Of a stretch of DNA of 23,682 bases, positions 1,096 to 23,682 are shown piece by piece. The position numbers were made by a program, and so were the translations under genes. A model generated the notes under the pieces. It worked only from the letters and a program-made list of their open reading frames with translations. It ran no database searches and was not told the DNA's origin. Source of the stretch: a virus; the IMG/VR virus record IMGVR_UViG_3300037011_000791, positions 1 through 23,682 of that record. One strand, 5' to 3'. The stretch's first letter is position 1. The number at the start of each line of letters is the position of its first letter.

Positions 1096-2553
1096 CTAGG
1101 CGACGTTGGCGTCCAGGCCCACCGACGCCGGCGCACGCCCGACGTTCTTGAAAATCATCCCCCGGCCGGGCGTGTAAACCGCGAGCGCGCCGTACAACGC
1201 CTGAGCCCAGCGGATGCTGAGATCGACGGTGGCGAATGGGATCTTCATGAACGGCGCGAGCTGCTTGAACGAGAAGAACTCGAGGTTCTGCTGGATGAAG
1301 TAGGCGTTGCAGGTCCCCGGAAGATCCGCATTGAGGTCGGTGATCACCGTGGTCGCTCCCCCGCGGGCGACGGTCTTGATCAACCTCCGCACGGTCCCAC
1401 CGACGCCGGTACGGTAGACCTCGAAGGCCGTGCCGGCAGTGGCTCCGTCGGCGACGGTCATGGTCACGCCCACTCCGGCAACGACCATCAGCGGCCCGGT
1501 CATGACCAGCGGCGCGCTGCGACCATAGCGGTTGATCGCGCAGACGTTCCAGTAGTAGTTCCCGACGTCGCTGGCGATGAACAGCGGAGCGCTTCCTCCG
1601 CCCAATGCCGAGGGCACGGCGTTCTCAGTCGGAGGAGACGGCCTCTGAGCGGCGTTCCCCACCCCACCCACGGGGCACACGGGACCGAACTGGAGGAACG
1701 TGTTGGGATTGAAGCGCACGGGCCCAAACTGGCTGTAGAAGCCCTGGATGTTCAGCCCGACCATCCCGTTCTGGAACCCACTGGGGGCCAGGGGGATGCG
1801 CACGGACGGGTAGAACTGCTTGGCCAGGTCCGCATAGGCGCCGTCGGGAAGATGCAGGTCGGTGCCCTTGCCGTAGTTGGGCTCGGACTTGAGGATCAAC
1901 CCCCCGTCGTTGATCGCGTCTTCGGTCATCGGCTGTCCACGCATGTCCACGACGTTCAGCGTCGGGTTCGGGGCGCCGTTGGTGATCTGGTACTTGAGGC
2001 CGTCGAACTGCACGGGGATCATCGTGTGGTCGCCCGTGAACAGCGCCCGCTCCACCTGCCGCAGGAGCCAGGCGGTGCCGTTGATGGTCTCCTGGCTGAT
2101 GATGTTGCCGATGGGGGTTCGCATGAGGGTCATGACGTGGGTCACGGCCCGGAGGGTCCCCATGAGCTTGATCGTCACGTACTGACGGCTGTAGGTGCTG
2201 TCATCGGCGCTGGGCGCTTCGCCTTCGGCCATGAACGCCGCGACCCCCGTGCCGTAGGAGTCCAAACGGTTGAACTCCTCGATCGTGTTCCAGGCGGGCA
2301 GCTTGGTCACGGCCGGCCAGAGCTTGAGATCGTCCATCTTGTAGGTCGTGACCTTCAGGGTCTTCTCCAGGCTCTCCATCCGCAGGGCGAACCCTTCGCC
2401 CGGTACGAACGCCGGGGCGTTGATGCTCGCTCCGGCGGTGAGGGCCTTGCGCAGGTCCTGCATCTGGTTCTGATCCATCGATCCGAATCCCTGCAGCCCC
2501 TGGTAGTCCTTCCAGGACACGAAATTGCCGCTTCCGGTCATTCCGGTGAACAT
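1096..2553 (-). CDS. Major capsid protein with Ig/FN3-like insertion
   Basis: A 485-residue protein that I call the major capsid protein from its place after protease and scaffold, its HK97-like look, and the strongest ribosome binding site in the window. The N-terminal part (about 1-70) includes a segment (33-70) that is also found in the protease. Residues about 71-290 have features usual for phage capsid proteins, such as DDLKLWPAVTKLPAWNTIEE and an acidic AFMAEGEAPSADD turn followed by a conserved beta segment. Residues about 303-412 look like an inserted Ig/FN3 domain (YYWNVCAINRYGRSAP). The chain then returns to the capsid core (FFSFKQLAPFMKIPFATVDL, ending near YTPGRGMIFKN). An intrinsic terminator follows. 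The exact capsid subfamily is not determined, and the N-terminus may be cleaved on maturation (inference). Confidence 0.88.
   Translation of the reverse strand: MFTGMTGSGNFVSWKDYQGLQGFGSMDQNQMQDLRKALTAGASINAPAFVPGEGFALRMESLEKTLKVTTYKMDDLKLWPAVTKLPAWNTIEEFNRLDSYGTGVAAFMAEGEAPSADDSTYSRQYVTIKLMGTLRAVTHVMTLMRTPIGNIISQETINGTAWLLRQVERALFTGDHTMIPVQFDGLKYQITNGAPNPTLNVVDMRGQPMTEDAINDGGLILKSEPNYGKGTDLHLPDGAYADLAKQFYPSVRIPLAPSGFQNGMVGLNIQGFYSQFGPVRFNPNTFLQFGPVCPVGGVGNAAQRPSPPTENAVPSALGGGSAPLFIASDVGNYYWNVCAINRYGRSAPLVMTGPLMVVAGVGVTMTVADGATAGTAFEVYRTGVGGTVRRLIKTVARGGATTVITDLNADLPGTCNAYFIQQNLEFFSFKQLAPFMKIPFATVDLSIRWAQALYGALAVYTPGRGMIFKNVGRAPASVGLDANVA
1318..1647 (-). other. Ig/FN3-like domain inserted in the capsid protein (approximate limits)
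   Basis: Residues about 303-412 of the capsid protein interrupt the core fold. They begin with a Pro-rich stretch (AAQRPSPPTENAVPS), then show the FN3-style strand YYWNVCAINRYGRSAP, a beta hairpin (GVTMTVADGATAGTAFEVYRT) and TTVITDLNADLPGT, where FN3 domains end. Such insertions or fusions in tailed-phage capsids are known to form surface protrusions that can bind carbohydrate or cell surfaces. The boundaries are judged by eye. Confidence 0.6.
2344..2457 (-). repeat. 38-residue segment shared with the prohead protease (copy in capsid protein)
   Basis: Capsid residues 33-70 align without gaps to protease residues 207-244. I count 23 identities in 38. Shared blocks include KAL-x-AG, GEGF-x-LR, ESLE-x-T and KVT. 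Similarity is also visible in the DNA, so this is a dispersed coding duplication rather than chance composition. Confidence 0.85.
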
Positions 2554-2559
2554 GATTTT

Positions 2560-2567
2560 CTCCTCCT
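2560..2567 (-). promoter_or_regulatory. Very strong ribosome binding site of the capsid gene
   Basis: AGGAGGAG ends six bases before the capsid ATG (AGGAGGAGAAAATCATG), and a second purine-rich AAGGAAC lies just upstream. It is the closest match to the 16S anti-Shine-Dalgarno in the window, as expected for the most abundant virion protein. The 49-base gap 2554-2602 otherwise holds only a four-pair GGGG-TAG-CCCC hairpin over the scaffold stop codon, without a U-run. Confidence 0.85.
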
Positions 2568-2602
2568 AGTTCCTTTCGGTGTCATCCGTTGTCGAAGGGG
2601 GG

Positions 2603-3979
2603 CTACCCCTGCAGAGCCTGTCTCACGTCGTTCACGAGCGCCTCGCTGATCAGATGCGCGCTCTCCCATCTCGGGATCTTCTCTCCGAGGTCTTCCCCGC
2701 ACGGGGCGATCATCCCACGGCCATCGGCCATGCTCTTGCTGAGCAGGGTCTCGAGGCCGTCACTGATCTGATCGGGCGTCAGATTCTCGCCCGAGGTGTT
2801 GCCGCTGAAGCTCTTGTTGAGCACCTTCGCCGATCGGCCATTGCCCTTGTAGGGCAACGGCGCTGCCTCGACCAGACCCAGGCGGTTGGAGAGCACGGCG
2901 TACTGCTGCTTGATGGCCGTGTTCTCTTCCTGCACGGATTTGATCAGTTCGTTCGAGGCCTGGACCACCCGGCCCACGCCCTGGAGGGCCTTGGCCAGGC
3001 CGACGTTGAAAGCTCGGCGAGAGGTCTCGCTCTTGCTCAAGTCGCTCTTGATTCCGTCGATGGCGTTCCCGAGGAGCTGGTTCATCTCCGCCAGGTACGG
3101 CGCGACCTCGTAGGCCTCGGCCACCTTCGGCTCCTGTCCCCAGGCGACGGCCGTTCCACCCTTGTTGAGCGGATCGACCTCGGCGCCCTGAACTTCGGGC
3201 TCTCCGCCCACGCGGGACTTGAGGAGGTCCAAGAGCTCCTGCTCCTCGCTCTTGCTCAGGTCTCCCTCGGCCATCTTCGCCCCGAGCTCTGCCCGACGGT
3301 CGGTGGCAGCCGCTTCCTGCCCGGCCGCCAGGGCCGCCAGGGCGTCCATGCTCTTCTCCAGAGCCTCCGCATCGACCACCGGCACTTCCGCCGGGGGAGT
3401 CGTCTGGCTCTTCATGAAGTCCACGAGTTCGTCCTGCTCGGCCTTGGAAAGCAACTCGCCCGCGGCCATCTTCGCCCCGAGCTCTGCCCGACGAGACTTC
3501 TCCGTCTTTTCCTCCCCCTCCTCCTCCCCTTCGCCCTCGGCCTCCTCCCCCTGCTTGCCCTCCTGGCCCTCCTGATCGTCGGACTCGTCTTCCTCGTCCT
3601 CGTCCTTCTTCTTGGCCTTCGACAGCAGGTCCACCAACTCCCGCTGTTCGCTCTTGCTCAGGTCTCCCTCGGCCATCTTCGCCCCGAGCTCCGCCCGGCG
3701 GGCGTCGATGGTCTCCTCCTGGCGCTGGCTCTTCATCCACTCGGCCAGCTCATCGCTCTCGGACTTGTTGAGCAACTCGCCCGCGGCCATCTTCGCCCCG
3801 AGCTCGCTGACCCGGGACTTGGTGATGGAGATCGGGCTGCCGCCGCCCTGGTCGGCCAGGCCTCCCTCGGGGTTCTCGGGCATCCCCCCGGCTCCCCCGG
3901 CGAGGTTGTTCTTGGCCCAGTCGGCCGCGGCGTCATCGGCGCTCTGGGGGATCGGCTTGGTCTTCGGCTTGGTCGCCAT
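2603..3979 (-). CDS. Scaffold-like head protein with four internal repeats
   Basis: A 458-residue, highly charged protein lying between the prohead protease and the major capsid protein, the usual place of a scaffolding gene. The ATG at 3979 follows an AAGGAG site and is three bases from the protease stop. Residues 1-56 are Ala/Gly/Pro-rich. Four copies of a ~27-residue helical unit (core ELGAKMA-x-G-x-L) lie at 57-84, 95-121, 164-191 and 229-255, split by an acidic stretch (DEDEEDESDDQEGQEGKQ, about 126-160). The C-terminal 180 residues are predicted helical with coiled-coil character (ASNELIKSVQEENTAIKQQY). It contains many K-S pairs in LSKSE or LLSKSM contexts. The scaffold role is inferred from position, composition and helical content. 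It could also be an internal head protein removed by the protease. Confidence 0.72.
   Translation of the reverse strand: MATKPKTKPIPQSADDAAADWAKNNLAGGAGGMPENPEGGLADQGGGSPISITKSRVSELGAKMAAGELLNKSESDELAEWMKSQRQEETIDARRAELGAKMAEGDLSKSEQRELVDLLSKAKKKDEDEEDESDDQEGQEGKQGEEAEGEGEEEGEEKTEKSRRAELGAKMAAGELLSKAEQDELVDFMKSQTTPPAEVPVVDAEALEKSMDALAALAAGQEAAATDRRAELGAKMAEGDLSKSEEQELLDLLKSRVGGEPEVQGAEVDPLNKGGTAVAWGQEPKVAEAYEVAPYLAEMNQLLGNAIDGIKSDLSKSETSRRAFNVGLAKALQGVGRVVQASNELIKSVQEENTAIKQQYAVLSNRLGLVEAAPLPYKGNGRSAKVLNKSFSGNTSGENLTPDQISDGLETLLSKSMADGRGMIAPCGEDLGEKIPRWESAHLISEALVNDVRQALQG
3215..3811 (-). repeat. Four-unit A-B-A-B coding repeat in the scaffold-like gene
   Basis: The units are at 3728-3811 (A), 3617-3697 (B), 3407-3490 (A) and 3215-3295 (B). 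A units read ELGAKMAAGELL-x-K with a DEL...MKSQ end. B units read ELGAKMAEGDLSKSE with an EL-x-DLL end. The two B units are nearly identical in DNA over about 50 bases, and the A units share the run GGCGAAGATGGCCGCGGGCG. The alternating order indicates that an A-B pair was duplicated fairly recently. Confidence 0.9.
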
Positions 3980-3982
3980 GGC

Positions 3983-4864
3983 TCATGCTCCTTGTGCTGC
4001 GGCGAGTTGGAAAATACGTTCGGCAGTCGTTCGAGGGAGAACCCCAAACCGGCCGCGGATCACCTCCAAGGCCTGGGCCTTGGTCAAGATCTTCCTGTTT
4101 CGCTTCTTCTTCCGCCTGGGCCGCGGTGGACCGGCCGTCACCTTCGGCGTCCCCTCCAGCGACTCCGGGCGCAAGGGGAATCCCTCTCCCGCGGCTACCC
4201 CGGGGTTGGAGATCGCGGACCCCGCCGACAGGGCCTTCACCAGGTCCTCACGGATCGAGTCCATGGCCGCTCCACAGGCTTGCAACACCGCCTGGGAAGT
4301 CCGTCGGCTGGTCTCACACTCGAGACTCTTGCTCAGGGTCTGGAGGGTGGTGTCGGTGTTCACGGGGATGGCCGTGATCGCGATGTGGTCCACTCGCGCC
4401 TCGGCCACGATCTTCCGATCTGGGCCTTCCCGACGCAGGACCTTCCCCTGGAGAGAGAATCCCAGCGGGCGCTTGGTCTTCTGCAGGGCCTTCGCCAGCT
4501 GGAACAGCTTCTCCGCCGGCTCGTATCCGGAGAGCAGCTCCCCCTCGACATACGTCGCGGGGTGGCCCTTGTAGGTCGTGCGCCGGATCGTGTCGGGGAT
4601 GCCGACAATGGCCGTGGTGTCCTTGCCGTGGTTATCGTTCAGCCAGCCCGTTTTCAGTAGGTTACTAAAGTCCAGACCATCCTGCTTGACCAGCTCATCG
4701 TCCAGGTCGGCCTCTCGGCGCTCGGTCGAGCAGATGCCCCCCACGCGCATCTTGCCATTGGCGGCTTTGTGGAAGACCGAGAACGGCACGTGCATGCGGA
4801 ACGGAACCTCCTGGGCTCCGCCGCACTTCGTGCATCCGTTCTTGGTCTGGCCGCAGCAGGGCAT
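3983..4864 (-). CDS. Prohead maturation protease with N-terminal Cys cluster
   Basis: A 293-residue serine protease of the phage prohead protease type. Such enzymes cleave scaffold and capsid protein during procapsid maturation. The core spans about residues 40-172: STERREADLDDE opening, LNDNHGK with the presumed catalytic His79, IVGIPDTI, YVEGELL, LGFSLQGKVL with presumed nucleophile Ser137, and the closing VDHIAITAIPVNTDT. Two parts are unusual. The N-terminus MPCCGQTKNGCTKCGG has four cysteines (3, 4, 11, 14) that could bind zinc. The C-terminal tail carries the segment shared with the capsid protein (207-244) and then a basic run (PRPRRKKKRNRK). The gene lies before the scaffold-like gene and behind the largest gap upstream of the capsid gene. 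Confidence 0.88.
   Translation of the reverse strand: MPCCGQTKNGCTKCGGAQEVPFRMHVPFSVFHKAANGKMRVGGICSTERREADLDDELVKQDGLDFSNLLKTGWLNDNHGKDTTAIVGIPDTIRRTTYKGHPATYVEGELLSGYEPAEKLFQLAKALQKTKRPLGFSLQGKVLRREGPDRKIVAEARVDHIAITAIPVNTDTTLQTLSKSLECETSRRTSQAVLQACGAAMDSIREDLVKALSAGSAISNPGVAAGEGFPLRPESLEGTPKVTAGPPRPRRKKKRNRKILTKAQALEVIRGRFGVLPRTTAERIFQLAAAQGA
4133..4246 (-). repeat. 38-residue segment shared with the capsid protein (copy in protease)
   Basis: Protease residues 207-244 (starting DLVKALSAG, ending PKVTA) match capsid residues 33-70 with 23 of 38 identical and no gap. It lies after the catalytic core and before the basic tail. A shared docking or cleavage segment is the simplest functional reading, but this is inference. 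Confidence 0.85.
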
Positions 4865-7384: not shown

Positions 7385-10300
7385 CTAGTCGAGATCCACT
7401 TCGTAGCGGATGATCTTGGCCTTGCGCGGCTGACCCCGTGACTTACCCATGGCCTCCGACCATGGGCTCTTTTTCTTTGCAGGCGCCGACGGTGGTTGTT
7501 GTTCTCGTTTTCCAGATTCTGGAACTTGAGTCTCCTGTCCCCCCTCATCCCCGGCGTCACCGTTCCCTTCTTCTCCCTCGCCCCCTCCGCCGCCCGGCTC
7601 TCCCTCCTGCCCCTGCCCTTGCTGTTCCTGCTGCTGGGCCTGCTGAGCCATCTGCGCCTGCTGGTCGATCATGCTCGCATGTTGAAGCCAGGTAGGGTCG
7701 AGAATGACCTCCCCCTTGCCGTCGGGTAGAGGCTCAAGATCTTCTTCCGCCCTCAGCTCATCGACGGTCTTGAGGAAGGTCACGACCTTCTTCTTGTTGT
7801 CGATGATCTCCGCCGCGTTCTTGATGTCCAACCCCGTGAACTGCAGGACGTAGTTGTCGTTGATCGGCCAGATGATGTGCCGGTTGAGCCACCCGGCCTT
7901 GCATCGAAGAATCGGACGTAGTCCTCGATCTCGCGAGGTCTTGATCCTCTGTTCCGCCGGAGTCTGTGACAGGGCCGCGGTCTGGCCGACGTTGCCGTAG
8001 AGGAAATTGAGTTCCGCCGGGTCACACAAGCACAGTGAGCAGAGGACCTTGATGTTGAAATTCATCCACTCCGAGAATTCCATGTCCCGGTTGGTCGAGT
8101 GCATGGAGATGTACTCCATCCCCTCGGGCACGTTGAACGCCGGCGTGCGGAACGCATTTGCCAAGCCGCTGATCTGCGCGTACCACTGGCGTCTGAACTC
8201 CTGTAGCCGATCTGGAGGGACGAAGCCCTTGAAGTTGATCAGCCCCTTCGCCACCGACCCCTGCGAGTTGTGGACAGCCACTCCGTTTGCCAGGAAGATG
8301 TGCTCATCGTCGAACACCTCGACGTCGAACATCAACTCATGGCCCACGGGGCCCGTATCAAGAACGTCTACTTCGACCTGGTGGTAGTAGAGCCAGTCAG
8401 GAACGTCCGCGCCGACGGCCTCCAGGAGATGCAGCGCCTTGGGGCGACTGATCATGCGGCGCCCCTTGGATGCTTCCCTGACGGTCATTTTCTGCCCCTC
8501 GTCCAGCCCCAGCCACTGGGGACCTGCTTTGATTCGAGATGCAATGTCCCTGGAAACGGCAGGGTGCAGCTTATCCCAGCGGTTACATGACCTATCCGAC
8601 CGTTCGATGCCTGCGTTCTTGTACTCCTGCAGGTAGCCAACGTGCTCCACAAACGCTCGAACGTTCTGGATGTTGATCGTAACTGCTCTTTCCCACCCTG
8701 TCCCAATCTCGTTCGCCGCGATCCCTGAGGCCCACAGCAGTTGCAGGATGTCCTGGCGAAACCGTTGATTGTAGGCAATAACCGATGGGGTCCTATAACC
8801 CTCGAGGTGGGTGATCGTACAGCCGTCCGCGCTAAACAGCCCCCGCAGGATCGCTCGACGGATCCAGAGGGGCATCTGGAACAGAACCGACGGAACGCGT
8901 TTTCCGTTCGTAGACGATTGGAACCCGATCTCCATCAACCACTCGACAAAGGCCTTGTGCTGGATCTGCACGCACGGGTATCCCCAAGCGCCGTCTGATC
9001 GCTGGTGATGTTTGTTGATGGTCCGCAGGTCGGCGTTGATTCCATGCTTGGCGGTCACAGCAAGGAACCGATCGAACAGCGCGGCGTCCTTCTCATGGTG
9101 CGGGTAAATTTGCAGCCACTGTGGATCGCCCTTCTTGGACAGATTGGGCCAGTATCCGTCACCAAGACTGAATCCAATCATCTCCCAGAAGTGGACGTCG
9201 TTGACCATTGCAGATGTCACAACAAATGTGGCTCCCCAAGAGCGCTGCGATTCATATGTCTTTCCCACGAGGAGCAATGATTCGTCCAGTTCCACATCCT
9301 GAACCTCTGCGCTTACCAAGGCCCAGTCACCGTTCTTCAATTCCAGTTGGCGTCTCCAGGTAGGCTCGCTGCCCTCGCGGGGGATGATGCGAAAACTATG
9401 CTCCGGGCTTGTTTTCAGCTCGATCCCATTCCATAGCTTTGTTCGGACAAGGGGGCGAACGCCGGTTTCAACGGCGCGTGCTGAACTCCATCGGCGACCG
9501 TTCCAGATCTCGAATTCCGTTCCGACAAGGTCCGCCAGCTGTGGAGCCCCTTTTCTGGTATCTACCCGGGTATCGCCCGTGGCACAGAAGAAGAGCTTAT
9601 TGTACGCGTGGCCATAGAGAAGGGCGGTGATGATGTCTACCGCCATCTCTCCTTCGGAATTTCCATATTGGTTCACCTGCAACCCCGACCGCGGGTTGCG
9701 CACGCCCCACATGAGCTCGTGGGGCATGAACTCGGCTATCACCTGCTCGTCGTAGATCTGGACATACCGGACGGTCTTCGGGTCCTCGTCGTCGAGCGGA
9801 ACGTCGGCCAACCGGATGGTTCCCGCATCGAGCGCCCGGAAGTCGCAGGGCTTGCCCAGGCGATTCCAGCGTAACTCAGTGCAGTTGTGGCTCACGAATC
9901 CGTTGGCTACAAAACTGTGGTCCTCCTCCACATCCAGGTTGTACACAGCAAGATCGGACACCTGCTCTTTGGTCACCTCGGAGATCTTGATGTAGTAGAA
10001 CTCTTCGTCCTGAATGAACCTGTTGAGTTTTCTGGATGGGGGCTCATAGGGCAATAATCCGCCCGTCTGGGCGATGGTTCGATACCCCTCGCCACCGCTT
10101 TGCCCATGGAAGATCTCTCCGTTGTTGCGAGAGTACGATTCGTACTCGTACCTCTTCGCCGGAGAATGCGAGAATCGCATGTAGCTTCCCAACGAAGCCA
10201 CAAGGAGTCTCATGCCCCCAAACAACTGCAGGGATGTCGTTCCGAAGGTGTTAGATGCGGCACCTCCTACTACGTGCCCATCTCCGCAGAGGTAGGCCGA

Positions 10301-11650
10301 GGCGAAAGCCGCCCTGACCGATTGGGAACATGAGAAGAGCCACTTGGGCAATCGCATCTCGGACCCGCGAGCGCCAAAGTTGTCTTCCATGAATCTCGCC
10401 AGGTCGGATGAGTTTCCGCACACTACTACCGCATGTCTTTCGGGGTCCGGATAGATCTTCGCGTCGATTCCCAGACGTTCAAGCTCTTCTCCGATGATCT
10501 CCACAAGGTCATCTTCATCTTCGGAAAGAGAAAACCTGATTCCGTTGTGCAAGTCTCTGACGCGTTGTACACAGCCCTCTGCCACATACAGCCCACACAG
10601 CCTGGCAAAGCCCTCGTCCACGATGACTCTCGAGGGATGCGGTCGCTTTTTTCTCTCAAACCCATATGCCGATGCTACCCGGAGTACTTCCTCGACGACC
10701 GGGCCGCTCTTCTTGTAGTAGCCACAAAGAATGGCCCGCACAGTTCCGACGTGCACCCCCACATCATCGGCAATAACAGCATAAGGAACCGTGGGGTAGT
10801 ACCTGGCATCGGACGTGAAGATGTCCAGCTCCACCGCCGTCTCTTCCAGTTGCGGCTTGGGGTAGACCAGGTAGTTGTCGCAGGTGAGTTCTTCGGCTTT
10901 CACCCACGATGGTTTGATCCCTTTCGACCTGGACTGGCTCAATCGGAACCATCTGTCAGTTACGGCAAGAAACGGGTGCGCCGCCGTGGCCTGAACTGTC
11001 TGACCACCGCTGCGGATTGTGACCAGCTGGCCCGTGTACTTCCTCTGCATCGGCGACAGGACAGGGCGAAGCCTCCCGGCGTGTGTTCTAACGAGCTCCC
11101 CGGAGACGACGTCTTCAATCTTTTTCTGTCCGCCGGACTCCCCCTCTACCAATGTCCCGCCGGGATGGCATTCCTGATCGAAAGTGAGGCTGTCACGGGT
11201 GGTCTTCTTGAGGTAGGCCTCGAAGTTGTCCTTCGTCATCCCATAGGTGACGCCGCAGTTCTCGATCATCTGCTGCAGCGCGCCGATGATGATCAGGTCC
11301 TTCCGGCCGGCCTTCTTCTTCCGATCGCGCATGGCGATCTTGAACCCGGCCTCCATGTCGTTTTCCTGGGGCACGGAGAAGTTGCTAAGGTCCGCCACCC
11401 GCAACTGGATGATCGCTCCCCAGATGGGCATCATCCTCGTCATCTGCTCGAGGATCGCGTAGGAGAGCCCCGTCTGGCGCTCACGGAACCCCAGTTGATC
11501 CAGGATCTGGAAGGGGTCGTAGTAGAGGCCCTTGAGGTCGGCGATGGTCTGCGGGTCGGGCATCCCCTGCTGGATCATCCCGGCCTCCCGCTTCTCTAGC
11601 GACGCCTGGGCGGCCATGGCGGGGTTGGTCATCTTGTCAAGAACGGACAT
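7385..11650 (-). CDS. Phage portal protein carrying two inteins
   Basis: A 1,421-codon gene made of three portal segments and two in-frame inteins. The exteins are residues 1-160, 590-688 and 1129-1421, which join to a 552-residue portal, near the usual length for the family. Portal-like features are PIWGAIIQLRVADLSNF, the junction FDQE-CTELRWNRLGKP, ALDAGTIRLADVP, FMPHELMWGVRNPRSG, the junction KLFF-SQGSVAKGLINF, and CDPAELNFLYG near the crown region. The portal forms the dodecameric DNA channel at one capsid vertex. The C-terminal ~120 residues are a low-complexity Gln/Gly/Glu-rich and then basic tail. GGGGAGG lies about seven bases before ATG 11650. The DUF5661-like gene ends 21 bases upstream. 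Both inteins sit in conserved portal motifs and have intact splice residues, so they must be removed for function. Confidence 0.9.
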   Translation of the reverse strand: MSVLDKMTNPAMAAQASLEKREAGMIQQGMPDPQTIADLKGLYYDPFQILDQLGFRERQTGLSYAILEQMTRMMPIWGAIIQLRVADLSNFSVPQENDMEAGFKIAMRDRKKKAGRKDLIIIGALQQMIENCGVTYGMTKDNFEAYLKKTTRDSLTFDQECHPGGTLVEGESGGQKKIEDVVSGELVRTHAGRLRPVLSPMQRKYTGQLVTIRSGGQTVQATAAHPFLAVTDRWFRLSQSRSKGIKPSWVKAEELTCDNYLVYPKPQLEETAVELDIFTSDARYYPTVPYAVIADDVGVHVGTVRAILCGYYKKSGPVVEEVLRVASAYGFERKKRPHPSRVIVDEGFARLCGLYVAEGCVQRVRDLHNGIRFSLSEDEDDLVEIIGEELERLGIDAKIYPDPERHAVVVCGNSSDLARFMEDNFGARGSEMRLPKWLFSCSQSVRAAFASAYLCGDGHVVGGAASNTFGTTSLQLFGGMRLLVASLGSYMRFSHSPAKRYEYESYSRNNGEIFHGQSGGEGYRTIAQTGGLLPYEPPSRKLNRFIQDEEFYYIKISEVTKEQVSDLAVYNLDVEEDHSFVANGFVSHNCTELRWNRLGKPCDFRALDAGTIRLADVPLDDEDPKTVRYVQIYDEQVIAEFMPHELMWGVRNPRSGLQVNQYGNSEGEMAVDIITALLYGHAYNKLFFCATGDTRVDTRKGAPQLADLVGTEFEIWNGRRWSSARAVETGVRPLVRTKLWNGIELKTSPEHSFRIIPREGSEPTWRRQLELKNGDWALVSAEVQDVELDESLLLVGKTYESQRSWGATFVVTSAMVNDVHFWEMIGFSLGDGYWPNLSKKGDPQWLQIYPHHEKDAALFDRFLAVTAKHGINADLRTINKHHQRSDGAWGYPCVQIQHKAFVEWLMEIGFQSSTNGKRVPSVLFQMPLWIRRAILRGLFSADGCTITHLEGYRTPSVIAYNQRFRQDILQLLWASGIAANEIGTGWERAVTINIQNVRAFVEHVGYLQEYKNAGIERSDRSCNRWDKLHPAVSRDIASRIKAGPQWLGLDEGQKMTVREASKGRRMISRPKALHLLEAVGADVPDWLYYHQVEVDVLDTGPVGHELMFDVEVFDDEHIFLANGVAVHNSQGSVAKGLINFKGFVPPDRLQEFRRQWYAQISGLANAFRTPAFNVPEGMEYISMHSTNRDMEFSEWMNFNIKVLCSLCLCDPAELNFLYGNVGQTAALSQTPAEQRIKTSRDRGLRPILRCKAGWLNRHIIWPINDNYVLQFTGLDIKNAAEIIDNKKKVVTFLKTVDELRAEEDLEPLPDGKGEVILDPTWLQHASMIDQQAQMAQQAQQQEQQGQGQEGEPGGGGGEGEEGNGDAGDEGGQETQVPESGKREQQPPSAPAKKKSPWSEAMGKSRGQPRKAKIIRYEVDLD
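8267..9586 (-). mobile_element. Intein 2 in the portal (440 residues, LAGLIDADG endonuclease)
   Basis: Residues 689-1128 of the portal gene product. It begins with Cys689 (CATGDTRVDT) and ends in VAVHN, and the first residue after it is Ser1129. Splicing block B is ELKTSPEHSFRI, and the C-terminal block is VEVFDDEHIFLANG. Two LAGLIDADG helices are visible, MIGFSLGDG (Asp831) and LRGLFSADG (Asp942), both with the catalytic acid, so the homing endonuclease may be active. The insertion splits KLFF-SQGS, a well conserved portal motif. Hand-counted 9181-9240 has 31 of 60 G or C, below most surrounding samples. Confidence 0.92.
9884..11170 (-). mobile_element. Intein 1 in the portal (429 residues, LAGLIDADG endonuclease plus HTH)
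   Basis: Residues 161-589 of the portal gene product. It starts with Cys161 (CHPGGTLVEG) and ends FVSHN, with Cys590 as the following nucleophile. Block B is TVQATAAHPFLAV with the TxxH histidine, and the C-terminal block is VYNLDVEEDHSFVANG. The endonuclease helices are LCGLYVAEG (Glu358 in the acid position) and AYLCGDG (Asp457). Between splicing and endonuclease parts lies a LacI-like helix-turn-helix (about 287-335). The insertion is at FDQE-CTEL in the portal. Hand-counted 10141-10200 has 33 of 60 G or C. Confidence 0.92.
10646..10792 (-). other. LacI-like helix-turn-helix inside intein 1
   Basis: Residues about 287-335 read TVPYAVIADDVGVHVGTVRA, then an ILCGYYKKSG turn, then VVEEVLRVASAYGFERKK. 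This follows the LacI-family DNA-binding headpiece pattern (helix, turn with GVS-x-xTV, RVLNG, then ERV-x-xAxxLGY). A DNA-binding accessory domain in an intein endonuclease would widen or sharpen target recognition. Family assignment is by eye. Confidence 0.6.
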
Positions 11651-13687: not shown

Positions 13688-16600
13688 CTACCTCATGCGC
13701 AGCACGAGGCTGCGAGCCATGGACTTCGAGAAGTGATCATCCGCGTGCAGGGCCGTGACGAGCTGGTCCATGGCGGCGTTGATTCGTTTCCGGTGTTCGC
13801 CTGCAGGATAGAACCCAGGGACGGCCTCGAAGGGCTGTGCCCCGCGCACGAGGTAGGTGTTGACGCGCCCTTGGCCCTCGAGCTTGTCCGAGACCCAGGC
13901 CTCGAAGCACCGGGCGAACATCTCCGTCGGACGGTGCCAGTAGTCGCCCATCTTCGACGCGCCCTCGTAGAAAGCCGTGGGCTTCTTGAACCCGCCAGGG
14001 GCCTTAGTGGCGCGATTGAAGTCCTTGGCCATCGCGTTCACCTGTAGGCGCAGCTGCTCTTTCCGCTGGGGGTCTCGCTCGGCGTAGTAGCTGCGACGGA
14101 TGTCCTCGATCTTGACCTTCGCCTCGGCCTTGGCCTTCACCTGGTCGACCGGCTCATGGCGGATGGTGTCCATCACCCTCTCCATCGCCGACGCCAGGTC
14201 CGGCGATACGGGGGTCTTGCCCATGGGCAGGTCAAACCGACCGCCACTTGCAAACGGGTTCTTTCCCTTCTCCGGATCCTGCACGTGGAACATCATGTGG
14301 TCCAGGAAGTGCCCCCACTCGTGAGCCAGGGAGCCTTTTCCGAAGATCTTGGTGATGTTGATGGCCTTCACGTCCGGGTGGTAGGTGGCCTTGAAGTGTC
14401 CTGTGCCTCTTGACCCGAAGGCCATGGTCAACCGGCCATTCTGGCCGATCTTCGATGGCTCGGCCCCCATGAGCGTCGCGAGATCAAACAGTGCCGCGTG
14501 GGCGGCCTCGGTATGCCACTGCCGCTCGGCCTCGTCTGCCCAGTGGCCGTATTCCACCTCGTTCAGTCCGAGGGACTTCTTCATCTCCTCCGATCCCAGC
14601 CCGTTGTTCCCGGGGACCGGTGGTCCAACGCGCTTGGCCTCGCCGATGCGGGCCTGAGCCAGGATCGTGTGGTACTTGTCTCCCTGCTCCTCGTCCGTCC
14701 TCTTGGTGGCGGTGTCCTGGCGTTGCTTCTTCGTCGCTGTCTGCCCGAGCCACGCCCACGGGTCTCCCTTGCCCACCCCGAGCTGGGCGTTCTTGTGCTC
14801 GTCATTCAGCGCCGTGATCTCCTGCATCACCCCCCGCCGGAGATCGGACTTGTAGGCGCTCTCGATTCGAAACTGGTCGGGGTCGTGTCCCCAGAGTTTC
14901 GCGAGCTGTGCCCTCTTCGGATCTTTGTAGCGGTAGGGGTAGGTGATCTTCTTTCCCAGAATCGCCAGAAACCTCGGCCCGAGTTGCTCGAGGTTCTTCA
15001 CCTGATCCTTGTGGATCTCCGCCACCTGCTCTCCCATTGCCACATACCGGTCATCGTCGATCTTGCGGATGTTGCAGTGGCCGTTGTAGTGATCGAGGAT
15101 CTTGCTGTTGGCCTCGTACCGCGCATCTCTCCATGCGCGCATGTCCTCTTTGTTGTTCGGGTCCCTCGGCATCGGAGCGAACATCCCGCCCCATCCGCGA
15201 CGCTTGATCTCTTCCAGAGTAAGCTCTTCCTTGGGGGCCACCCCCTCGAGCTGGTCAGTGAGTTCGCGGACCATGGTGTTCATGTCGGCCATGGTCCGGC
15301 ATTCGGACAGACTCGCCTGGACCACCCCAATGGTCTCGGTGAACCTCTGGCGGGCGTCTGGGCTGTCATCCGGTCTGGCCTGGATCGCCTGCATGAGCCG
15401 GTACTTCAGGTACGCCGCCGCGGGCTCAGTGCCAGCCTCGCGCTCGGCCAGGAACGAACCTGGCTCAACCTTCCCCCCGAGGACCGCGTCCTTGGTCACG
15501 AGCTTGTACGCCACGGCCGGGTCTTTCTCGAGCTCCCCCGAGTTGCGCAAGGACCACAGCTCGGCCCGGCTGCCGAAGACATAGCCGGTAGTCTCGTACT
15601 TCCCGGGCTCAGACTCCTTCCCCTCCGCCGGCGCCGCGGGCGTCAGCACCAGCTTCGGCTCGCTCGGATTGGGAGCCACTTTGGGTTCCACTTTGGGAGC
15701 CGGTGATGGTTCGATCTTCCCACTTTCTTCCGCTGGTTTCGCTGGGTGCTGCTCTTGTTTGGGCTCCGCCTTTGGGGTCACCCCGGGTACCACCGGCTCT
15801 TCCTTCCCCGTCTGGGGGTTCACCCGCACCACCAGGACCTTGCTCGGCTGTCCCTGCGGTTCGTCGGCTGGGTGGGGCTTGTCCGTCATGCCCTTGTCGG
15901 GGTACCAGTATTCGTAGTCGGCACCCTTCCGCCGGCGGAACCCCCCGTGCCTGCCCGAGGGGATGGATTCCCACCCGGCACCCGGGGCCTTGGCCGCCCC
16001 AGCGAAAGGCTGGCTGTGGCCGAAGAGCCCCAGCTGCACGGCCTTCAGAAGGTCATCCAGGCAACCGATGCCCCGGCGCCCGAGGTCGAAGACCAGTCGG
16101 ATGGCCTTGGTGATGTCGCTCCCCGTCAGCTTCCGGACCACCTCCGCCAGGTGCTCATGGGGCACGTGCCACCCGCGGCGATCCGGGTCATACCCTCGGC
16201 CACCGACCACGCGCTTGATCTTCTCCTTGTGGGTGTAGGTGTTTCCCAGGAGGAGATGAACGGGCTTGCCCGTGGTGGAAGGCCTGACCGAGGGGGACAT
16301 GCGGATGCCCAGGGCATCCAGCTCATGGGCCGCCTTCGCCCGTTCGGCCTCGGTGCCAGTGCCCGCAGGTGATGGTGGTGGAGGAGCAGGCGCCGTCTCA
16401 GGCTTTGCCGCCTCAGCCACGGCCGCCTGCTTCTTCACCTCCGCCAAGTTAACCTTCACGACCGCGGCCCCGTAGTGCTTGGCGAGCTCGGTCATGGCAC
16501 TCGCGGGCATCATGAACCCCGTGTGCATCGCCGGACCGGGAAGCCGCGTGGTGGTCCCGCCGAGTCGCCGGAACAACTTGTTCGACGCCGGGTCGAACCC

Positions 16601-19600
16601 GCTCCAGTCTACGAAGAACCCCCGCCCTGGTACGTGCTCGATATACCAGTGGCGATGCTGGCGCAGTTGCTCCGCCGCCCGGTGGGCCTCTCGCTCGGAC
16701 TCGCGCTTCTGCCGTTCGATCTTCTCCGCATGCCCCTCGGCCAGCACGTCGTGACCGGCCTTGCGGGCTTCGGCGTACTGGTGGAAGTACCGGCGGAGAT
16801 CCTCGGCCCCAGCGATCTCCTCCGCGCTCCCTCCATTGTCGATCTCCTCCTGGGCCGCCTCGAGCTGGCTGATCGCCTCCGCCGGGTCATCGCTGCCTGC
16901 AGCAAAGTCGATGCCGGCCTCGAACTCCGAGAGTTCGCTCGCGCCCTCGTGGGCCTCGATGTCCCCGCTGGTCAGAGCGCCCATGGAGCGCAGCCGCTTG
17001 GCGACCTTCCCCGCGTTGTGCCGCTCGCTGTCGTCATCCCCCAGGATCCAGTGCATCTCCGTCTCGGACTTCGATCCCAAACGATGGGACCGCCCGGCAA
17101 CCTGTGTGAACTCCCGGCCGGACCATGGGACCCCGAGGTTGATCTGTGTCCGAGGGCTCTCGCCGGTCTTATCATGGAGGCTGATGCCGGTTCCGCCACG
17201 GGCCATGGTGCAGACCACGACCTTCTTCTTCCCCTCCTGGTAGGCCCGCTGCTCGTCCGCGGGTTTCCGGTTGGTCGCCCCATGAATCTGGGCCACCAGT
17301 TTCGGACCACCCAGGGCCTCGGTCAGGTCCTTGACGATGCTCCCGCCGGGGGGGAGGGTGGCGATCAGGCTGTCGATGTCATGCGCCAGGCCCATGTACG
17401 CCTCGGCCTGGGCATCGGCCCCGGGCTTGTCGCTGTTGGAGGCCCGCTCGGCCTTGCGCATGAGCATCCGGGGTAGGGCCCGCAGGTGATTGTGGTCGGA
17501 CTCCTTGTAGCAGGTGAAGAGCGCCACCTGCCGGCCACGTGCGAGCTCGGCCTTCGCCAGGTCCACCGCCTTCTGTAGCTTTAGCGTCTCCCAGTATTGT
17601 TTGGACCAGCCGATGTTCAGCGCCCGGAGGATAGATGGATGGAACACCTCCTCCACCCGCTTCATGATCTCCGACACCGTCCCGAAGGCCGCTCGATGGT
17701 GCTCATCGAGCTCGTCCGAGTTCAACTGACTGAACGTGGAATGCACCCCCTCGAGACGGGCCGTGCGCAGGACCGACAGACCATCGACGTGGAGAGTGGC
17801 GGCGATGCGGGCCATGGGCTTGAGCGCGGCCGTGGGGTTGTTGACCTTCGACGCCGAGTTCTTGCCCCGGCCTTTCTTGACGTCCGCCCCAGCGATCTCG
17901 GCCCACCTGGCAAAGCTCTCGGGGTCACCCGTGAACCACGGGCCGCCCTTTGGCAGCTCCCGGCCGTTGGCCCCACCCTCTCGCCCGAGCTTGACCAGGT
18001 AGTGCATGTCCGTGACGTGGGTGAAGGGGGTCGCCGAGAGATAGGCCACCTTGGCCTGGGTGGACCTCGCCTGGAGCTCCACCGCCGCCTGGGCTCGGAT
18101 GGAGTCGGCGTTGTTCATGTTGTGGGCTTCGTCGAAGACGATCGTGTCCCACTGGCCATGAAAGAGCGCGGGGTTGCGCATCCGACGTTGTTTCCCATCG
18201 ACGTCCAACACGGGCTCGCCTTGGGCATCGACCATCGGCACCAGGAGGTCATCGTAGCTGACCATGTACGTCCCGTCGGCCGTCGCTGAGAACGCGGGGT
18301 CACGGCTGATGCTGATGCCATAGAGCCCGGCGTTCTCCGGGCCCTCCCACTGTTGCTTGAGACCTTCTTTCCCCGAGACCGGGACGACGATCAGGTTCTT
18401 TCGCCCTCCGCGGGAGTGAATGGCCCCGAGGGCCGTGACGGTGTTGTGAGTCAAGATGCAGTGCTCGGTCGTGTAGAGCTGATCCTCAGCTTCGACGGCA
18501 ATACACACGGATTCCATGTTGCGCGTAAACTGGATAGCTGTCAGCGTCCGGACCGGCAGAGCGTGTCTGCCAGGGTTATATCGCCGTGCCTTTCGTTCCA
18601 CCGTGAAAGGTTTTAGCCACGCCGGCACTCTGATACGCACCTGGTACTCGACCGGCTTGTCCTCATCGGCCCGGTCGTACTCGCGAATCGATGCGATACC
18701 GCCCATGCCCTCGACGAGTTCCTGGACATCCTGCGCCAGTCCCACGCTGGTCGTGTGATAGGTGAGCCGGTTGCGCGTCTTCGAGACAGAGCCATCGGCA
18801 TCCATCATGCCCTGTAAGAGAGCCACACGGTCTGCTTCCCGAGCCTGGAGGTAAAGTAGCGGGATACGCTTTTCTCCACTCAGTACGGCTAGACCTAGCT
18901 CACGGATGCGTCCGCCCATCCCGGACCCGCCGAAGCGTGAACGGCGGCACCCTGGTTTGTCGTCCCCTCCGCTTGGAACACATCCTTCGTCCGCCAGTCG
19001 TTCACGCACCTCTGGCCAATCCAGCGCGTTGGTCGTAAGTGCCGGAGTCGGTTGCGTACAAGAACCATTGGCGATGAGCTGGCCCAGCATGTATGCCGGT
19101 ATGGGCAGATCGCCTCCCTCGAATTCTGCCGGTCCAGAGAGCATCGGTAGCCAGAGGTTCGCCTTTCCCAGGTCGAGCTTGCTGGTCCTGCCCGGCTGTT
19201 GTACTTCAATGATCTTCCCGTCTCGCAGGTCCGCCGTGGTGACTGTGATGTCCTGCCATCGTTTGCCCCCGGCCCTATAATAGAACGTCCAAAGGTGATC
19301 TTCTCCAGCCTCCACTTCCGCACCATCAGAGAAGCGAACCAGATAGGTTGGTAGTTCACCACGTGGATATACACCTTTCACCCGTACTGGCTTCCCGTCG
19401 GAACCGATCACCATGTCTCCGACGCGCAGCGAACCAATCTCGCGCCACCCGGTAGGGGTGAGCGTTGGCGTGTGTACAGGCTGGCATTTACCCAAACCAG
19501 CGGAGTCCTGCAGGACCACGCCATCCCCTTCTTCCCACGCCGCCAGGATCCGCTCAGCCCCTTCTTTCTGATGCTGGCGCAGCGCTTCGATCTTCCCAGT

Positions 19601-22600
19601 GACCGTACCGGTCGAATCCTTGAGCTCCGCGGGGTAGGGGAAGGCGATGATGTTCTCGGTCAGGCGCAGGTGCTCGGGGACGTCCGGCAGGAGCTCGGCG
19701 GCAAAAGTATCGCAGTCGCGCTGGACGTCTACTTCGGGGATCGGCCGCGGGTCTACGACCGCCGGCGGCGGAAGCGCGCCCTCAAGCTCTAGGGCTTCGG
19801 ACGGTCCTTCATCGGGGATTTCAGTGCCGGCTGTACCGGTCGCTCTGCCGGCTTCGTCGGTTCTTTCTTCCTCTCTCGCATGAACTCCAGCATCTCCTCC
19901 CGCTCCTCCTTCGGCAGGCGCCAGTAGCCCGGGATCTCCGTGATGACTTCCTTCTCCTGCTCCTGCTTGCCCTTGTCCATGTTCTTCTGTCTCCTGCTTT
20001 GATGTTAGCACCGCGGCGGTGCCTTGGCCAGAGGTTTGTACGTGTTGTCCCCATTCCTCTGCCGCCTGGGCCGCCGCATGGGCCGCGTGTATTTCCAGCG
20101 GCTCTCCCGGGTGGGGCGTGTTCACGTGCCCCACCTCCGGATACCAGTAGTAGCGCTTGTTGCCCACGACCTTCACGTACCCCCCGTGGCGGGTGTTGGT
20201 GATGGCCATGTACCCCGCGGGAGGTTTCTGGGCCCCGCTGCCGCCGAAGAGGGACATCTGCGCGGCCTTCAGGAGGTCCCAGTGATCCAACCTGGCCTTG
20301 GCCAGCTTCTGCCCGTGCATGGTGACGAACGCCTCGACCAGCCCCTGGATCGCCTCGGGGGTGATTGGGTGCCTGCCGAAGTCGTAGGCAAGCTCCTTGT
20401 CGGTCAGGAACGCATGCCGCACGTCCTTCATCACCATCCCCGCGATCTTCTTCCCGTCCACCTTCGCCGGACCGCCCTCGGAGGTACTGGCGGTGATCGC
20501 CTCGTCTACCAGCTGTTCGATCAGCCAGATGGCCCTGTTCATGAGGCGGTTCTGTGCTGGTTTCTTCTGCTCTGGCTCGTTCTTCTTGGCTTTCATCAGG
20601 TCCTGGACATCCTTGCCACGGCTGGCCGCCAGTTCCTGCTGCTCGCCCTTGGTCTTGCCCCCGAGCTCGAACTCCGTCCGCAGGGCCTCCAGGGGGGTCG
20701 TGGGCTCGCCACCAAACCCGGGGATCCGAAAGGACCCACTGTCATGCTGCGCCTGCTTAGCTCGCAGGGCAAACCCGCGGAACCGCTGGGGCAGGGCGTT
20801 CTTTTGGTCTCCGCGCTCGATCAGCACCTCCAGCAACGCCTGGCCCATCTCATCCTTCTTCACCGCCCCCTGGGGAGACTGTCCGGTCTCCTTCAGCTCC
20901 TCCTGCGCCAAGTATTTCTTCATCCCCCGGGTGGTCGAGGGGAACCCCCGCTCGCGCATGTCAATCCCGGCCTTGACCGCCGTCATCAGTGACGGTCGGA
21001 TGTCCCACCCGTTCTCTTCGGCCGAGATCAGCGCCGAGGTCGCCCGGGCGATGTTGGCCCTGTGAGAGGGCATCATCCGGTCCAGCACGCTCGCGTCGGG
21101 CAAGCTCCGGGCAGCCAGAATCCGCTCCACCCGCCCGCGGCCCTCTTCGTTCAGAAGCCCCGTGTCCTGGGTCACGTACTGGGCCCGGTTGTACTGGTCA
21201 AGGATCCCCGAGCGCTCCAGGGCATTCACCAGGGGCTTGCTGGAGGAGGAGGACAGGTAGTCCCCGAGGGTCTGATCGTCGCCCATGGTCTCGGCCAGGG
21301 TCGACAGGACGTCCTTGTTGACGAACGCCTTGCCCATGGAGACCTCTTCCGACCGTGGGTCCAGCCCCTGGGTCAGGGCTTCGTTCATGCGGCGCCCGAG
21401 CTTGTGCAGCTCCTTCTCATCCTTCCCGACCTTGACCTTCCGCACGAGGATCGGGTTCTTCATCGCCCGCACGTCCGCGGCGGTGAATCCATAGCCGCGG
21501 GCGGTCGCCGCGAGGTAGTCCTTCAGGGCCTGTCCCTGGTCGGGGTAGAGCTTGTAGGCCCGTTGCATGGCCATGGTCCGGCCGTTTCCCCCCAGGACCA
21601 CCCCCTGGTCGGTGAGGATCGGCGTGCCGTTGACGGCGTCGGGGTTGTTGTTCACGGCCATCGCCGGCTTGATCGCCCGGGCGATCCGGTCTACCTTTTC
21701 CCGCTCGGACTCGATCTCGTGGTACCGACGCTCTTGGACCCCCTTGGGATAGTCCTCGCGCTCGGTCATCTTCTCCGGATCGTGGGAGGCGATGATGTCC
21801 TCGGCCTCCATCAGCCCCCATTGGGCGTCGAGCTCGGTGATCCCCTTACCGGTGTTGTCCCGCAGGAAGACCTTGGTCGGCTCTCCCTCGAGCTTCCGCT
21901 CTCCACCCCCGGCCTTCTTCGACCGGCTCACCAGGACGTACCCGCTGGGCTGCTGGATCACCGCCCATTGCTTGCCCATCCCCTGGGCATGCGCCTGCTC
22001 CTCGAGTTCCGTGGGATCGGCCGAGAACCCTTCGATGTCCATCCACTCGCCCTTGGCCAGTTCCCCCATGCTCACCCGCGGAAGCGCCGGTGCCGAGCCC
22101 TTGGTGGCCTTCGTCGCGGGCTTGGTGGCCGCCGCCTTCGTACCCTTGCCGGGCCCGGGGGCCTCGGCGGTCTTTCGTGCGTGATAGCTGGAAAGCATCC
22201 GGCGGAGATCGTGCTCCCGGATGTGAACCGTGCGCTTGCTCTCGTCGTGCCGAACGTGAACAAGGCCTTTCTCGCGATCGTGGGCCAAGATCTCAAAATG
22301 GCCCTCCATCCCCGCGTGGGAGCCCTTGAACTTGGCCCCGGCCACCAGGTGCTCGTCTTCCACCATCCCCTTCCTCCCGGGCAGCTTGTAGATGTACTTC
22401 CACCGTGGTCGGTCTTTGCCCGTGGGAAGACGGCGAATGTACTTGTGCGTGGCGCCCTTGGTCAGGTCATCCCCAGTCTCTTCACAGCAGAACACGAGCT
22501 CCGGCGGGTTCCCCCGACCTTCGCGCATGGGGCTCATGAGCAGCTGGAGATCCACCGGCGCTGGGGCCATCCAATACTCGCACCCTCCGTCCACCTGGCG

Positions 22601-23221: not shown

Positions 23222-23235
23222 CAGCGACACCTTGC

Positions 23236-23682
23236 CTAGGCCGGCGTTCGTCTTGCTGGCGATCCATCGGGGACGATAATGGCAGAACCGCCCGGGGCCG
23301 TCACGTGCCACCGCTGCATCGGGGTAAGCTTGTCATCCGCATACAGCACCCAGTTGTTTGTCGATCCATCTTGTAACTCCAGCCGGTTGAACAGCGCCTG
23401 CCGGGCCTGCCGGGCGTCTGCGCCAGCGTCTGCCAAGGAATCCAGGATGGCCAAACGCGCTGGGGTGAGAATATCCGCCAAATCCTCTGACGTCATCCCC
23501 CCCTCCCAGCTTCCTCCCCCGTGAAGCTCGGCCAGCTTTGACTCGATGTTTTCCGCCGTCACGTTGTAGTGGGTCAGGACTTGGCAAGTGCTACCAGGTG
23601 GCCGCTGGTCGATGACCTTGATTCCGACGCCGCTGGCAATGACCTTGCCCGCCGTGCAAGTGCTCCCGACGATCAAAACCCC
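23236..23682 (-). CDS. Phage structural-type protein, 5' part missing
   Basis: The frame is open to the right edge (in frame GGG GTT precedes a TTG at 23676), so the gene most likely starts outside the window and 149 codons are visible. The visible part has a Thr/Gly-rich beginning, a helical middle (SEDLADILTPARLAILDSL) and the C-terminal pattern LFNRLELQDGSTNNWVLYAD, then LTPMQRWHVTAPGGSAIIVP and PARRT. Endings of the type W-x-LY-x-DD...TP...V...G...PARR recur in phage structural proteins of unknown exact role. It ends at TAG 23236, 14 bases before the polyvalent gene, in the same operon. Confidence 0.65.
   Translation of the reverse strand, partial: GVLIVGSTCTAGKVIASGVGIKVIDQRPPGSTCQVLTHYNVTAENIESKLAELHGGGSWEGGMTSEDLADILTPARLAILDSLADAGADARQARQALFNRLELQDGSTNNWVLYADDKLTPMQRWHVTAPGGSAIIVPDGSPARRTPA

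Follow-up and report, generated by a model that had tools for sequence, protein, structure and literature searches.

Head module of the window

The window, by which the whole 23,682-nucleotide stretch analysed is meant, carries a phage head module on its minus strand; the genes follow the order portal, protease, scaffold and capsid, as in SPO1, with extra small genes sitting between the portal and the protease. The major capsid protein (1096-2553, minus strand) is a 485 aa protein with an HK97 fold of the SPO1 type (PHROG 752, E 5.8e-82); it aligns with the solved SPO1 capsid 9vel at Z 37.6 and with 5lii at Z 28. Based on homology to the start site of the capsid chain 9row, residues 1-36 (2446-2553, minus strand) are predicted to be a propeptide that is removed after K36. 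They are followed by the N-arm of the mature protein, residues 37-69 (2347-2445, minus strand), which is the segment copied in the protease; the arm is disordered when modelled alone.

Between the protease and the capsid genes lies an acidic, scaffold-like protein of 458 aa (2603-3979, minus strand), placed like gp3.3 of SPO1. It contains 14 K-S dipeptides against 2.8 expected, an enrichment of about 5-fold, and the same dipeptide is enriched in the scaffolds of most relatives. The protein also features four repeats of about 30 residues with the pattern ELGAKMAxGxLxxKSExxELxxxxKS, with K-S sites in each; the ELGAKMA repeat looks like a repeated cleavable unit. The portal gene (7385-11650, minus strand) is interrupted by inteins: one with a LAGLIDADG domain spans residues 197-589 (Pfam Intein_splicing), and a second, recognised by eye, lies at about residues 694-1129 of the same protein. 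Elsewhere in the window, 13688-23311 encodes a giant polyvalent protein of 3207 aa with a ddrB-like ParB domain and an LPD1 domain; its strawberry-notch type helicase is interrupted by a LAGLIDADG intein. The matches to PHROG 1028, PHROG 752 and 9vel together with the gene order show that the head module is of the SPO1/Herelleviridae-like kind. The capsid protein and the protease encoded by this 23.7-kb fragment are at most 37% identical to those of isolates, and the window is therefore considered to derive from a distant environmental member of the SPO1-type lineage.

The prohead (head maturation) protease (3983-4864, minus strand) is a 293 aa protein matching PHROG 1028 (E 3.4e-33); no Pfam family matches it up to E 0.1, the prohead-protease profile included, and Pfam and NCBIfam together provide no usable protease family. 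Its catalytic core is placed at residues 22-183 (4316-4801, minus strand); the PHROG 1028 match covers residues 22-191, and AlphaFold models residues 40-180, approximately, with a pLDDT above 85. H79 and S137 are invariant among 57 relatives, so that the catalytic His and Ser of the herpesvirus-assemblin clan are present, and Foldseek matches the core model to the proteases of HCMV and EBV (E 7e-4, probability 1.0); the resemblance of prohead protease cores to the herpesvirus maturational protease fold is already known for the clan. The copy of the capsid arm, identified through 23/38 identity, BLASTP and co-variation, occupies residues 207-244 (4133-4246, minus strand), outside the core as the preliminary description had stated, and its family-wide part is limited to residues 210-243 (4136-4237, minus strand). 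A self-cleavage site is predicted at K210|A211 (4232-4237, minus strand), opposite the K|S/A site of the capsid protein in the alignment. AlphaFold predicts the copy to be disordered when the protease is modelled alone. Behind it follow a K/R-rich linker, RPRRKKKRNRK, at residues 248-258 (4091-4123, minus strand), which is recognised by its sequence and also found in many relatives, and a C-terminal helical pair at residues 262-292 (3989-4081, minus strand; pLDDT of about 95).

Extent of the shared segment

Residues 207-244 of the protease align without a gap to residues 33-70 of the capsid protein, 23/38 positions being identical, exactly as first reported; the two copies map to 4133-4246 and 2344-2457 of the window, respectively. 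The next best diagonal between the two proteins reaches 9/38, and the highest value among 300 protease shuffles is 13/38; BLASTP of the protease against the capsid protein aligns 26/50 identical residues (E 2e-10). Chance likeness is ruled out by the BLASTP result and the shuffles. A scan of the entire 23.7-kb record with the capsid arm gives matches in two places only, the capsid gene and the protease tail.

Across the family the shared element has a sharp upstream limit; it begins at a lysine, K210 in the protease and K36 in the capsid protein, and nothing upstream is shared. The eight positions that precede the lysine each show an identity of 0-0.38 between the two copies, against 0.86 at the lysine itself (P1) and 0.58, 0.70, 0.42, 1.0 and 0.98 at the five positions that follow; the LRxESL positions later in the arm are the most conserved in both copies. 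The solved capsid chain of the phage 812 type, 9row, starts exactly one residue after the homologous lysine. SPO1 capsid chain 9vel_B has 445 modelled residues, which equals 468 minus the 23 residues up to the lysine; these residue counts fit an SPO1 capsid arm that is ordered from A24 on. The likeness on the P' side and the starts of 9row and 9vel point to the copied element being the retained mature arm and to the lysine being the maturation cut; cleavage of a capsid protein after lysine is known from gp5 of HK97 (K103|S104). As judged from the sequences, roughly the first 35 residues of the mature capsid protein recur within the protease tail. The segment had been placed in the region that capsid proteins often lose on maturation; it is instead found just downstream of the predicted cut, at the start of the retained arm. 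The shared feature is also not a cleavage motif alone, as the likeness extends about 30 residues downstream of the lysine and is absent at the scaffold sites.

Occurrence and co-variation among relatives

The same pairing of protease tail and capsid arm, which the preliminary description proposed to seek in related phages, was found widely. In the Herelleviridae-type phages that were read first (LysYB1, Exiguobacterium phage 132, SPO1, LfeInf, P100, phiSA_BS1, Revolver and Goe26) the beginning of the capsid protein recurs in the protease tail of the same phage in 8/8; the Herelleviridae pairing covers SPO1, P100 and Twort-like phages, and the lineage includes the phage K/812 type. It extends to Thermus, Pseudomonas, Bordetella and Yersinia phages with SPO1-type capsids: Thermus phage phiMa and Pseudomonas phage Touem01 each carry a tail copy of their own capsid start, PHB04, Dolphis and fHe-Yen8-01 carry the arm copy, and Mecenats66 is borderline. 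The likeness is striking in phiMa, with TAGDPHALDPKSGLTGVPAIRRESLE in the protease and TAGDPHALDFKAGLTGVPAIRLESIE in the capsid protein; a search of 50,697 phage records with the phiMa tail finds it in phiMa itself and in the closely related Cumys only, at two places each. Occurrence in relatives rules out a private feature of one phage. Single window proteins retrieved only one near-identical contig from IMG/VR, so alignments were used for the search; 105 loci with both genes, IMG/VR relatives included, gave 78 non-redundant protease/capsid pairs, of which 60 score above all 300 shuffles.

The copy appears to be confined to the two genes and to this lineage. An HMM of the segment run over 9694 ORFs matches protease and capsid genes only, apart from one weak match that is a capsid fragment, and the arm segment occurs at two places only in the whole SPO1 genome; an arm copy in the scaffold or other head genes is ruled out by these two scans. 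Nor is the copy general to all prohead proteases, since it was sought in HK97, T4 and D3 and found in none of them (for T4, in comparison with the first 185 aa of gp23 only); the best HK97 match lies in the protease core, and its score is reached by 7/500 shuffles. The Bacteroidota phages DAC19 and MA9V-3 show no clear arm copy. In the latter, a Chryseobacterium phage (L008), the protease and the scaffold are seemingly fused into one 532-aa protein (2836-4434).

Co-variation of the two copies was compared by exchanging partners in 78 unselected phages, the own tail with the own arm being scored against swapped pairs. Were the copies the product of a single old split followed by drift, a tail should fit its own capsid protein no better than that of a relative; this is not what is observed. 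For capsids less than 30% identical the own pair scores 86.0 and the swapped pair 36.2, the own partner being preferred in 99% of 740 pairs; the scores are 87.7 and 43.8 for capsids 30-40% identical, and 74.7 and 71.8 for those 70-90% identical. Tail and arm of one phage also resemble each other more (105-109) than the tails of distant phages do (32-39) in 856/856 pairs, and parallel residue changes outnumber crossed ones by 1968:39 and 2700:34 in distant pairs and by 31:12 in the closest class; these two comparisons cover only the 52 phages with an own score of at least 60, a choice that favours own pairs. The outcome is strongly positive: independent variation of the two copies, which had been named as the result that would speak against mimicry, is refuted, and with the pairing and co-variation in relatives the segment does look like a mimic of the capsid arm, as had been proposed.

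At 1186 identical residues the codons of the two copies agree in 500 cases, with 525 expected from codon usage; as there is no excess, selection at the protein level, rather than recent gene conversion, is considered to keep the copies alike, and recent gene conversion is ruled out as a general account. A small excess of identical codons is seen at loci L010, L029 and L032, where recent gene conversion has possibly occurred, to judge from the codons. A different arm type, GPLxLENLD, is present at L114, L124, L130 and L141, and the protease tails follow that type; the cores of these proteases are 41-55% identical to SPO1-type cores, while the capsid proteins are only 25-33% identical. In the Gram-negative group an arginine of the arm has been lost jointly from both copies. 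With the identity of core and capsid body removed, a partial Mantel correlation is weak (r 0.085, reached by 15/500 permutations), which indicates that the co-variation largely tracks lineage; the power of this comparison is low because core and capsid identities are near collinear, with a correlation of 0.85.

The full copy is not retained everywhere. Absence of the segment from the proteases of close relatives had been named as evidence against a role, and this is found in part; one clade has an eroded copy, and its capsid proteins are 70-82% identical to those of relatives in which the copy is intact. The protease tails concerned (L038, L039, L047, L053, L071, L076 and L082) contain a Gly/Pro/Ala-rich spacer in place of the middle, but AKS(L) is kept, in many cases together with (P)EALEG at the end. 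The full arm copy is thus not indispensable, and it is this clade that speaks most strongly against the copy being strictly required.

Possible roles of the tail and comparison with known proteases

The sequences suggest that the arm copy plugs the protease into the shell that it is to trim and is then cut off. On balance, the tail is considered a self-cleavable docking element that copies the mature capsid N-arm, an assignment held with a confidence slightly better than even. During prohead assembly, the copied arm would take the site on the inner shell that normally receives the capsid arm; some protease molecules would thereby be fixed in the lattice, with the core beside the K|S and K|A motifs in the capsid and scaffold proteins. 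Once active, the enzyme would cleave the capsid protein and the scaffold, and would cut its own tail as well, in each case after a lysine of the same kind; the tail cut would free the core, and the arm copy would either stay behind or leave with the fragments. Since the tail must fit the site of its own arm, the two sequences would be expected to evolve together. Putative self-cleavage, docking in the shell's arm site and release of the core are thus read from the sequences, whereas specificity of the protease for K|S/A is very probable on the same kind of evidence and is supported by the K-S enrichment of the scaffold; as these scaffold sites lack the arm copy, cutting itself appears not to need the arm. 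Disorder of both the arm copy and the capsid arm, each modelled alone, is what would be expected of segments that fold on binding. Of the earlier suggestion that the segment is a self-cleavage site inactivating the enzyme, the first half is consistent with the K|A/S at the upstream edge of the copy; inactivation is not supported, and a cut at this place would separate the core from its tail. A more general form of the docking hypothesis is an exchange of arms, in which, across the SPO1-type lineage, the protease would pose as a capsid subunit, insert its copy of the mature arm into the lattice and so gain entry to the procapsid, the loading site and the substrate site being locked together by co-evolution, and the same cut that matures the shell also sets the protease loose; this broader proposal is tentative, and is given somewhat less than an even chance.

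The tail may instead be a substrate mimic acting in cis: an exosite of the protease would recognise the 30 or so residues after the capsid cut, and the enzyme's own tail would fill it, which would silence the enzyme before assembly or synchronise self-cleavage with capsid cleavage. The start of the copy at a P1 lysine with the same K|A/S agrees with this, and a single exosite for both copies would also yield co-variation; however, the downstream element is missing at the scaffold K-S sites, the tails track the capsid type while the cores remain similar, and an autocleaved tail would make a poor lasting inhibitor. The AlphaFold model, in which the tail is disordered and not bound to the core, may hint in the same direction, and the cis substrate is on the whole thought unlikely. 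Slightly less likely again is a common third partner, scaffold or portal, that would bind both the capsid arm and the protease tail and gather the two proteins during assembly. A precedent exists in the T4 targeting sequences that bind the scaffold core (PMC9026906), and the scaffold gene adjoins the protease gene; against this, scaffolding is usually tied to the N-terminal propeptide, which is the unshared P side here, and the arm remains on the mature shell once the scaffold has gone.

It is also conceivable, at a low probability, that the cleaved C-terminal fragment, comprising the arm copy and the helices, is itself built into the head as a minor structural component, at the portal vertex for instance. 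Bc431v3 virions contain the prohead protease by mass spectrometry, at 12% coverage (PMC3601020), and the prohead protease of fHe-Yen8-01 is annotated as particle-associated, but the catalytic part may simply stay inside the virion. A functionless remnant of an ancient gene duplication or fusion, or the product of recent gene conversion, is very improbable; the slight excess of identical codons at the three loci named above is in its favour, while the lack of an overall excess, the thousands of parallel changes against few crossed ones and the likeness of tail and arm beyond that of orthologues in every distant pair oppose it. As a general account it is refuted by the swap test, the codon comparison and the parallel changes.

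The proposed self-cleavable docking tail has parallels in known head systems. SPN3US gp245 carries a C-terminal propeptide that is autocleaved, and a role in directing the enzyme to the prohead has been proposed for it (PMC7411985, PMC10052503). SPN3US gp245 and phiKZ gp175 share with the window protease a C-terminal extension behind the core for which prohead targeting is proposed (PMC7411985, PMC10052503), and in the window, as in the gp245 class, this extension starts with the predicted cleavage motif of the enzyme. These proteases cut themselves at their normal motif, after A-X-E, whereas K|A/S is predicted for the window; their propeptide has no reported likeness to the capsid protein, unlike the window tail with its co-evolving copy of the mature arm. 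In HK97 the protease is packaged in the prohead at about 60 copies (PMC12749128). The tail of HK97 gp4 shares an LTKxQA helix with the window protease, a weak likeness whose score is reached by 20/2000 shuffles, but in contrast to the window it contains no capsid-arm copy.

For T4, the targeting sequences of IPI-III and Alt are removed propeptides that bind the scaffold core, an autocleaved packaging tail is suspected for gp21, and the processing of that tail and the entry of the protease into proheads have been called a major gap (PMC9026906). As in the window, a short element tied to the protease site is common to different head proteins, and in T4 it serves targeting; the T4 element is the removed propeptide, whereas in the window the P side is unshared and the shared element, located on the P' side, is retained by the capsid, which sets it apart from a capsid targeting sequence of the T4 type. 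T4 gp21 contains no copy of the gp23 N-terminus within the first 185 aa of gp23 compared. The herpesvirus protease precursor enters by an MCP-binding C-terminal part that is cut off at maturation (PMC12474303); UL26/UL26.5 resemble the window in the homologous protease fold, but there it is the scaffold that carries the MCP-binding tail, and this tail does not copy the capsid protein.

A C-terminal packaging propeptide of the protease is therefore already known or proposed, while a propeptide that copies the capsid arm and co-evolves with it is apparently new; no description of such mimicry was found in the open literature, subscription papers (Duda 2013 on HK97 gp4; those on the SPO1/812 capsids) lying outside this scope. 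The arm copy provides a candidate packaging signal for the SPO1, P100 and phage K/812 lineage that is defined by sequence, co-evolves with the capsid and has an exact start residue; if proven, it could serve directly as a tag that carries cargo into these capsids, and also as a marker by which proteases are matched to capsids in metagenomes.

The P1 residue of the predicted tail cut is itself variable; it is K in 43/51 proteases of relatives and R in 6/51, and the proteases with R count against the docking model. The six with R (L020, L022, L024, L028, L029 and L030) belong to phages whose capsid proteins retain K, and these proteases may cleave themselves more slowly or may accept R.
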